NCBI GenBank assembly: GCA_019309045.1
Contig: JAFDGZ010000021.1
Coordinates: 1 to 64,000, forward strand
Source: Deltaproteobacteria bacterium
GTDB taxonomy: Bacteria > Desulfobacterota > Syntrophobacteria > BM002
Length of the DNA: 64,000 bases
Direction of reading: 5' to 3'
Shown: positions 22,613-24,908 of the stretch, in pieces
Numbering within the stretch: position 1 is the stretch's first letter
Layout of the letters: the number at the start of each line of letters is the position of its first letter
The notes under the pieces: generated by a model
What the model was told of the DNA's origin: nothing
The model's database searches: none
Seen by the model: the letters and a program-made list of their open reading frames with translations, nothing else
Translations under genes and position numbers: made by a program

Positions 22613-23365
22613 ATGATTGAGAAACTGCAGGAGATTGTTCAGAGGTTGCGAGCAGCTGACGGCTGCCCCTGGGACCGCCAACAAACGCCAGAAAGCATAA
22701 AAAACTACATCCTGGAAGAGGCCTACGAGGTGGCAGATGCCGTGGAAAACAAATCGCCTCCCCAGGTGGCTGAAGAATTGGGTGATCTGCTCTTCATGGC
22801 TGTTTTTCTGGCTAATCTGTACATGGAAAAGCACTGTTTCTCCCTGGACGACGTGCTGCAGGGAGCAAAGGACAAGATGATTCGCAGACATCCGCACGTG
22901 TTCGGTGAACAACGCCTGGAGTCCAGCGAAGAAGTAAGGGAAAATTGGGAAAAAATCAAACAACGAGAACGAGCAGATAAAACGCTGGCCTCTGCCCTGG
23001 AGGCTGTGCCGCGCACTTTGCCTGCATTGATGCGGACCCACCGAGTGCTGGCTAAATTCCGCAGGGCACTCCACCGGCCCCTCGGCAGGGAGCTTCTTGC
23101 GCAGGAACTGGCCGAGGCCGTCGCAGCAATAACAGCATCAACCACTCATGAGAGCAGTAGCCCAGCAAAGCTATTAGGGAAGGCTCTCTTTCTGGCAGTG
23201 GCATTACACCTGGAAGCAAAAATCAAGGCTGAAGAAGCACTCAGCAAGACGGTCAGCGGCTTTTCGAAACGGATTGGCCAACTGGAAGTCAAGTTGCAGG
23301 AGAGCGGCAGAACTTGGCAGGATTTTTCAGAAAAAGAAGAGAAAGATCTTTGGCACAGTTTGTAG
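22613..23365 (+). CDS. mazG: Nucleoside triphosphate pyrophosphohydrolase MazG
   Basis: Hydrolyses non-canonical or excess nucleoside triphosphates to monophosphates and pyrophosphate. 250 residues with two MazG domains; the first carries the metal motifs EEAYEVADAV (about 36-45) and EELGDLLFMAVFL (about 55-67), preceded by GCPWDRQQTPESIKNYILEE. The second domain is diverged. ATG at 22613 after GGAG. No toxin-antitoxin mazEF context, so a housekeeping role is likely. The minus-strand SRP RNA lies 3' of it, ending about 124 bases after the stop. Confidence 0.93.
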   Translation: MIEKLQEIVQRLRAADGCPWDRQQTPESIKNYILEEAYEVADAVENKSPPQVAEELGDLLFMAVFLANLYMEKHCFSLDDVLQGAKDKMIRRHPHVFGEQRLESSEEVRENWEKIKQRERADKTLASALEAVPRTLPALMRTHRVLAKFRRALHRPLGRELLAQELAEAVAAITASTTHESSSPAKLLGKALFLAVALHLEAKIKAEEALSKTVSGFSKRIGQLEVKLQESGRTWQDFSEKEEKDLWHSL

Positions 23366-23488
23366 GTTACTGATCTTCACAGAAGCACAGTTAATTAGAA
23401 GCACCGGGCTTTGGTGCAAGGCACAGGACGAAACGATCCTCTTAAGCCGTCCAGCATAACCAGTGACCGACAACCGCAAACAAAATAA

Positions 23489-23769
23489 GATCCTTGACCG
23501 TGCACCCTCCCTCGAATTCTGCCAGTGCCGGAACTGACAGCCTGGAAGCCATGATTAGAGAGAACTGCGACACAGACTGCAATACTTACCGCTGCTTCCT
23601 CCCGGACCTGACGGGGTTCGTATCCGTCTGTTGCGCAGTGTCCAACCAGATCCAAGGACTGCCAGACTCCGACATTGCATGGACCCTCAGGAGGGGATTC
23701 AACCCCGCATAAGCGGCTTTCGGGTTACAGGGCACCGCTAGCTCCCCGTCTAGCACGGCCAAGGAATCC
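23489..23769 (-). ncRNA. ffs: Signal recognition particle RNA, long bacterial form with Alu domain
   Basis: Read on the minus strand, this roughly 280-base RNA matches the Bacillus-type scRNA from memory. The 5' part has CCGTGCTAG, GGGGAG, TAGCGGTGCCCTGTA and GAATCCCCTCCTGAGG, the Alu-domain blocks. The centre has GGACACTGCGCAAC and the SRP54-binding domain GTCAGGTCCGGGAGGAAGCA with a GGGA tetraloop. The 3' end GTGCACGGTCAAGG pairs with 5' CCTTGGCCGTGC in a 12-bp closing helix with one G-U. A U-rich run (TCTTATTTTG) follows, a plausible end. A possible promoter upstream is TTGAGA (23819-23814), 18 bases, TATGCT (23795-23790). End coordinates are accurate to about 5-10 bases. This gene explains the otherwise empty 491-base gap and rules out the open frames there. 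Confidence 0.94.
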
Positions 23770-23856
23770 TCAATTTTGTCGATGTGCATAGCATAACACA
23801 AAACTCAGCTGAATCTCAAAGCATCTTTGCTGGCGAGCGTTCTTGCAGAGCCCCTA

Positions 23857-24597
23857 TCACGCAGGGAGCTCTTCCCCGGTTGACAACAACACCCTTCTGG
23901 GCTCAAGGTGGAGGAGGCGCTCATAAAGTGTATCAGCCGCTGTAGGGTGCAGCAGATGCTCCCAGCCTCCCACATGCAGTAAGCAGCCAGAGTTCAACTG
24001 TCTGAACACCAGCTCCACTGCAGCAGCCATGCGGGCTTCCCTCTCTTGCCAGGTAGAGTCAGCCTGGCAGCCTCTACTATAGAAGTATGACAGCGGACCT
24101 CCCTGCCCATTGAGCAATTTCCCAGCAAGATGGTATTCCTGCCGCACCTTCGAGGGCATATCCTCAGGCTCTTCACCGAGCAACGCCTCTATGTTTCTGC
24201 TGCTGAACAGTTGCGGCCACTGTGAGCTGATCAACCTTCTGCTCCATTCCGAGGAGTCCACGCACTGGATGATCGCCCCATAGTCGTGGCCGTATTTCTC
24301 TGCCGCCTCATATTCAAATGGCACCTCGATTTGAACCAGCATAGCCTGAATCTGTCCCCACGCGCGCCAACACTTCCCTAGAGCTTCTGCCAGCTTCTTT
24401 GCTCTTGCCTGCACGATTCTAGCCTGGCGCCGACCGTACCTTTGCCGGTACCAGAGACCATAGGGACTCAGTTCCACTGTCACGGCAGCAGGACGCACTT
24501 TCTCGAGCAGACGGCGCAGCTTGCCTGCTCCGTCTGGATCACGATGCACCGTACCTACGAGCAAGAGCCCTTTGCCCCTGAGTCCCGTAGCAGCCAT
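23857..24597 (-). CDS. TraB/PrgY-like protein of unknown function
   Basis: 246 residues from the ATG at 24597, two bases after the J-domain gene stop. The start GKGLLLVGTVHRDPDGAGKL followed by RPAAVTVELSPYGLWYRQRYG resembles the GTxH and VELD motifs of TraB/PrgY and related Tiki/EreA-ChaN proteins, some of which are metal-dependent proteases or pheromone inhibitors. The later segment LHVGGWEHL has a second conserved-looking histidine. There is no signal peptide or membrane helix, unlike many TraB proteins. The rest is not recognised. It is the last gene of a tight four-gene operon (101-aa protein, HAD hydrolase, J-domain protein, this gene). The superfamily link is by motif only. Confidence 0.6.
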   Translation of the reverse strand: MAATGLRGKGLLLVGTVHRDPDGAGKLRRLLEKVRPAAVTVELSPYGLWYRQRYGRRQARIVQARAKKLAEALGKCWRAWGQIQAMLVQIEVPFEYEAAEKYGHDYGAIIQCVDSSEWSRRLISSQWPQLFSSRNIEALLGEEPEDMPSKVRQEYHLAGKLLNGQGGPLSYFYSRGCQADSTWQEREARMAAAVELVFRQLNSGCLLHVGGWEHLLHPTAADTLYERLLHLEPRRVLLSTGEELPA

Positions 24598-24599
24598 TT

Positions 24600-24908
24600 T
24601 CACTCGCGCGAGCGGATATTGTTCCCGAAACGTCGGAACCACCACTTTTCAGGATCAAACTTTTCAACTTTCTCCTGGACGAAAGAACATGGATAGAGCT
24701 GACAGTAATCGAGAAGCAAACGGTAGGCTGCATTCAGATCCTGCATTTTGGCCACGCTGGCTCGCTGGCTCCTCTGCCGGTCAGGATGCCATTCCTTGCA
24801 GAGTCGGCGATAGGCTGCCTTTATCTCTCTGATGCTGGCCCTCTCTTCCAGGCCTAGAAGTCTTCGAGCTCGGTCTATGTCAGCAAAACTGAAAGGTAAC
24901 TGCTTCAT
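24600..24908 (-). CDS. Small J-domain protein
   Basis: 102 residues. Residues about 9-70 form a J domain with the HPD motif in CKEWHPDRQRS, which stimulates DnaK-type Hsp70 ATPases. The C-terminal tail has FDPEKWWFRRFGNN, not part of DnaJ proper; no G/F-rich, zinc-finger or C-terminal substrate domain is present, so it is a specialised co-chaperone. The start ATG shares one base with the HAD gene stop (TAATG) and the stop lies two bases before the TraB-like gene, implying coupled translation. Client unknown. Confidence 0.85.
   Translation of the reverse strand: MKQLPFSFADIDRARRLLGLEERASIREIKAAYRRLCKEWHPDRQRSQRASVAKMQDLNAAYRLLLDYCQLYPCSFVQEKVEKFDPEKWWFRRFGNNIRSRE

Follow-up and report, generated by a model that had tools for sequence, protein, structure and literature searches.

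A single-copy long bacterial SRP RNA gene with a putative elongation-arresting Alu head in a deltaproteobacterial genome

Introduction

In the usual picture Gram-positive bacteria carry an Alu brake on their signal recognition particle (SRP), and Gram-negative bacteria lack it and compensate otherwise (PMC4359368); the same source, in a passage citing Regalia 2002, describes Gram-negatives as typically without the Alu domain. A locus on the minus strand of a deltaproteobacterial contig raises the question whether this rule holds here. In the window, by which we mean the whole 64-kb stretch of DNA analysed, the initial annotation had proposed a long Alu-domain SRP RNA and had called this form best known from Firmicutes and Thermotoga, most Gram-negatives having the short 4.5S RNA. 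It further named two outcomes that would speak against the proposal, namely a match of domain IV only and a separate, expressed 4.5S gene elsewhere in the genome. We therefore ask whether the locus is a genuine SRP RNA gene, what its Alu head may do and how ordinary it is among its relatives.

Results and discussion

Identification of the SRP RNA gene

Covariance models for the large and the small SRP RNA give a clear answer. With cmscan on positions 23000–24300 the Rfam family RF01854 (Bacteria_large_SRP) was matched end to end at 23498–23758 (-), untruncated over model positions 1–256 of 256, with 162.8 bits (E 4e-28; gathering score 60 bits). This high score across the whole interval bears out the proposed long RNA, and a match limited to domain IV is not what was found. 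RF01854 was also the sole Rfam family matched at gathering threshold in the entire 64-kb window, in which no tRNA genes were found. The minus strand at 23491–23765 thus holds one complete long bacterial SRP RNA (Table 1), its ends being estimated from the sequence by way of the closing helix. All features of RF01854 that could be tested are present: full-length match, Alu head, closing helix and domain IV, together with Ffh and FtsY in the genome. RF00169 (4.5S), in turn, comprises RNAs without an Alu head and this locus carries one. Its domain IV matches RF00169 with 62.9 bits and has the conserved Ffh-binding internal loops and the tetraloop, CAGGTCCGGGAGGAAGCAGC being present exactly. The warning that false ORFs might fill such a gap also holds, as an 86-aa ORF at 23395–23655 (-) overlaps the RNA.

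Table 1. Features of the SRP RNA locus and its neighbours in the window.
Feature	Position	Strand	Basis or remark
SRP RNA gene	23491..23765	-	RF01854 match plus seven outward pairs; mature RNA estimated at ~275 nt, bounded by closing helix
Helix 1 (closing helix), 5' arm	23753..23765	-	pairs with 23491-23503; 11 of 14 counted columns compensatory
Closing helix, 3' arm	23491..23503	-	pairs with 23753-23765
Alu hairpin H3 with loop L2	23729..23747	-	RF01854 alignment
L2 segment AGCGG of loop-loop pairing	23735..23739	-	pairs with 23712-23716
Alu hairpin H4 with loop L1.2	23703..23724	-	RF01854 alignment
L1.2 segment CCGCU of loop-loop pairing	23712..23716	-	pairs with 23735-23739
Domain IV S-domain tip, Ffh-binding part	23550..23647	-	RF00169 match, 62.9 bits at same locus (G000:C21)
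Promoter-like site TTGAGA-18-TATGCT, TG before -10	23790..23819	-	agrees with consensus at 9 of 12 positions; 0.2 on average in shuffles
T-rich tail right after closing helix, probable termination region	23478..23490	-	TCTTATTTTGTTT
262-aa TraB/PrgY-like protein, upstream neighbour	23857..24645	-	TraB likeness by eye
MazG, convergent neighbour	22613..23365	+	NF007113, 224.9 bits, above cut-off

Only one SRP RNA was found in the host genome, a draft of 3.9 Mb in 211 contigs that is 97% complete. This count rests on three concordant searches (RF01854, RF00169 and a core pattern with up to three mismatches), which do have false negatives since the B. subtilis control genome gave no match to either RF01854 or RF00169. 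The separate 4.5S gene considered at the outset was found by none of them. The sole other match to the core pattern was rejected as a second SRP RNA: it has three mismatches, the same as the reversed control, and is without model support. Both protein partners are encoded in the genome, Ffh with 612.5 bits to TIGR00959 and FtsY with 353.2 bits to TIGR00064, each above the curated cut-off.

The Alu head and its proposed function

In the window RNA the apical loops of H3 and H4 are complementary over 5 bp (AGCGG/CCGCU). A loop-loop pseudoknot is common to all Alu crystal structures, and the Alu domain of B. subtilis docks at the factor site of the ribosome and blocks elongation (PMC8137916). We collected 137 distinct Alu heads and found the five-pair L2/L1.2 pairing kept in every one of them, although in the 119 loci collected by pattern the search itself prescribed the letters of L2 and left those of L1.2 free. 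The great majority (133) read AGCGG/CCGCU, two read GGCGG/CCGCU with one G-U pair, and GGCGG/CCGCC and GACGG/CCGUC, found once each, are compensatory variants of the pairing.

We consider the locus almost certainly a single-copy gene for a long bacterial SRP RNA that would serve as SRP scaffold and, through its Alu head, arrest elongation by “dock-and-block”. The RNA, probably transcribed from its own promoter, is one long hairpin; Ffh is bound at the domain IV tip, which also accelerates docking with FtsY. The opposite end is predicted to fold into the Alu head, H3 and H4 being joined by the loop-loop pairing, and the head should reach the factor-binding site of the ribosome, slowing elongation during targeting of ribosomes that make membrane protein. 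Sequence, structure, conservation, copy number and the presence of Ffh and FtsY come from the sequence analysis itself; factor-site docking, elongation arrest and any partner of the HU/IHF family we infer from B. subtilis.

The RNA might instead be a mere 4.5S-like Ffh scaffold whose Alu head is a vestige without arrest in this lineage. For binding Ffh, domain IV would be enough by itself, and relatives in the same families dispense with the Alu head; the head is indeed not indispensable, because many relatives live without it. However, distant phyla share a nearly unchanged head whose tertiary pairing is kept up by compensatory changes, which is not expected of a vestige. We therefore regard a vestigial head as improbable.

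All 256 positions of RF01854 are matched (H3/H4 Alu head, rod and domain IV) and nothing essential differs, the window RNA adding seven closing-helix pairs outside the model. It shares the Ffh-binding domain IV tip with E. coli 4.5S RNA (RF00169), whereas the long rod and the Alu head are absent from the latter. The scRNA/6S SRP RNA of B. subtilis has the same architecture, and its head is likewise paired through AGCGG with CCGCU. In contrast to B. subtilis the host is Gram-negative, the gene lies between mazG and the TraB-like gene, and, where HBsu is the partner protein in B. subtilis, the host genome has five HU/IHF-family proteins as candidates.

Genomic context

A further reading would make the contig a contaminant from a Firmicute or a member of the Chloroflexi and the long RNA foreign to this genome. 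The assembly is a draft in 211 contigs with an estimated contamination of 3.46%. The gene order PhoH, YjbQ, CvpA, MazG, SRP RNA, TraB-like, DnaJ-like, HAD and NadB is, however, identical strand for strand over all nine genes on the complete deltaproteobacterial chromosome CP070735.1, and contamination is therefore very unlikely. Among the loci compared the flanking genes are closest to Deltaproteobacteria (NadB 79–81%, PhoH 80%), and genomes of the same family carry the same RNA. The gene order on CP070735.1, together with the RF01854 match, confirms the initial annotation of a long Alu-domain SRP RNA on the minus strand of a deltaproteobacterial genome. The TraB/PrgY-like protein immediately upstream is kept at this position in relatives with 30–50% identity; it had no Pfam or NCBIfam match.

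The promoter-like site lies 25–30 bp upstream of the closing helix, and its hexamers are not conserved at any one fixed position among relatives. No separate hairpin terminator was found adjoining the closing helix. Relatives of the same family end with CCAAGGG at the end of the RNA followed by a T-run, so that the closing helix may double as terminator stem.

Fold and covariation

The fold of the minus strand is 5.0 standard deviations more stable than that of dinucleotide shuffles, none of 200 shuffles being equally stable. The closing helix proposed initially exists, but is 13 bp long, one more than the 12 bp given: UCCUUGGCCGUGC pairs with GCACGGUCAAGGA, seven outward pairs lying beyond the RF01854 model and one of these being G-U. 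In the window sequence 85 of the 98 model pairs present are standard pairs. Two-sided changes were seen at 75 pairs in 34 divergent homologues (56.6 in shuffles, at most 52 with slid structures), and the covariation score in these homologues was 0.375 in comparison to 0.190 for shuffles and at most 0.154 for slid structures. This test took its structure from aligning the window sequence to the Rfam model, and the percentage of paired positions is therefore biased in favour of that structure; more weight belongs to the two-sided changes. With an E value of 4e-28, a fold z-score of -5, covariation, an intact Ffh-binding tip and the standing of the genome's only SRP RNA found, a chance fold or pseudogene is hardly credible.

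Distribution of the long form

A full-length RF01854 match of at least 129 bits is present in 48 of the 56 genomes of the host's class. One further genome of the class, from the same family (G308), had appeared as a loss; this was rejected since the head is intact and the low score results from a run of N that interrupts it. Of 296 genomes sampled evenly across the phylum, 49 from 20 families carry the full-length form, each scoring at least 116 bits over all model positions. Scores then drop to 102 bits and, read by eye, the top examples under this gap are short 4.5S RNAs, several of them beside a tRNA-Ser-like gene. We left two genomes aside: G094, in which neither RF01854 nor RF00169 found an SRP RNA, was kept out of the counts, and G321, which looks diverged at the 5' end and has 7% contamination, was left out of the loss calls.

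An exact Alu-head pattern matched at least 119 loci in GTDB species genomes. Among the matches listed are Deltaproteobacteria/Desulfobacterota, Dehalococcoidia, Anaerolineae, SAR202, Thermoleophilia, other Actinomycetota, Zixiibacteriota, LCP-89 and one member of the Clostridia, and the named carriers of the long form span Deltaproteobacteria, Chloroflexi, Thermoleophilia, Zixibacteria and LCP-89. Since Alu-head loci span these groups, the long form has a wide distribution beyond Firmicutes and Thermotoga. The initial annotation was thus right about the Alu form and overstated the surprise, given its presence in most of the class and in several non-Firmicute phyla. The long form is the rule in the host's class and the window gene is ordinary for its group; the rule that Gram-negatives typically lack Alu does not hold for this portion of the phylum.

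Alu-bearing SRP RNAs were also seen in Thermoleophilia (L063, L085, L086, L107, L120) and in other Actinomycetota (L083, L096, L118, L134). The Thermoleophilia loci contradict an earlier statement that the long form is missing from all Actinobacteria (PMC1586193).

Alu-less relatives

Alu-bearing and Alu-less SRP RNAs coexist in six families (f2, f16, f34, f37, f49 and f86). The short RNAs of f2 (G068), f16 (G012, G079, G127), f34 (G181) and f49 (G116) are headless and keep the core letters of their long relatives; in f34, G220 was counted as a short RNA without head from its model match only. Several short RNAs of f16, f34 and f49 still follow the HU-family gene that also precedes the long forms, which suggests that the head was lost in place.

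In genus g182 of f86 all five genomes with a detectable RNA (219–221 nt; L208–L212) retain the rod and helix 1 (GGTTGTGC pairing with GCACAACC), one short hairpin standing in place of H3 and H4, and the sister genus g162 is intact. Within f37, G033 (L203) is headless and its congener G429 intact, and G435 (L204) is also without the Alu head.

“Headless” long SRP RNAs, with helix 1 and rod kept and a single short hairpin, were thus observed in the five g182 genomes and in two genomes of another family. We know of no report of such bacterial RNAs, and a literature text search of limited reach found none.

The RNAs sit at homologous places and the head hardly varies from phylum to phylum, which argues for loss rather than gain. 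The order of loss would then run from an intact head, through a rod in which a single hairpin substitutes for the head, to a short 4.5S RNA.

An HU/IHF-family gene beside the SRP RNA

Of the 134 distinct Alu-bearing loci listed, 58 have an HU-family gene immediately upstream and on the SRP RNA strand; these loci come from six or more families of the phylum. The best score of the HU-family protein is to IHF-beta, just under the cut-off; loci with such an IHF-beta-like gene upstream include L006, L007, L014, L017, L019, L021 and L023–L027. Downstream of the pair the genes vary (PilM-like, PyrG-like and laccase-domain-like, named by eye), so that the pair has outlived rearrangement.

According to the passage of PMC4359368 that cites Nakamura 1999, the Alu domain of B. 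subtilis is bound by HBsu, which makes the IHF-beta-like protein a candidate partner of the Alu head. Adjacency as proof of head binding was rejected, as the HU gene is still there at four loci of these families whose RNA is Alu-less. In the window and in its own class the HU gene was not found adjacent. The host genome encodes five HU/IHF-family proteins, and its closest homologue of the HU-family neighbour lies on another contig (L036, G000:C47).

Implications

The window RNA joins a known kind, RF01854, and is not a rarity; of more interest than the gene itself are two leads, the series of losses and the pairing with HU. On balance we favour the view that the Alu brake of Desulfobacterota is old and selected, is being lost repeatedly and stepwise, and in part of the phylum is genetically linked to an IHF-beta-like HU protein as possible head-binding partner. 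Should the HU/IHF–SRP RNA gene pair prove functional, it would point to a candidate partner protein outside Bacillus. A class that keeps the head almost universally beside headless close relatives offers natural pairs for testing the purpose of SRP elongation arrest, and with the headless RNAs the contribution of the rod could be told apart from that of the head. If stepwise loss is the true reading, SRP elongation arrest in Gram-negatives becomes testable by comparing close relatives.
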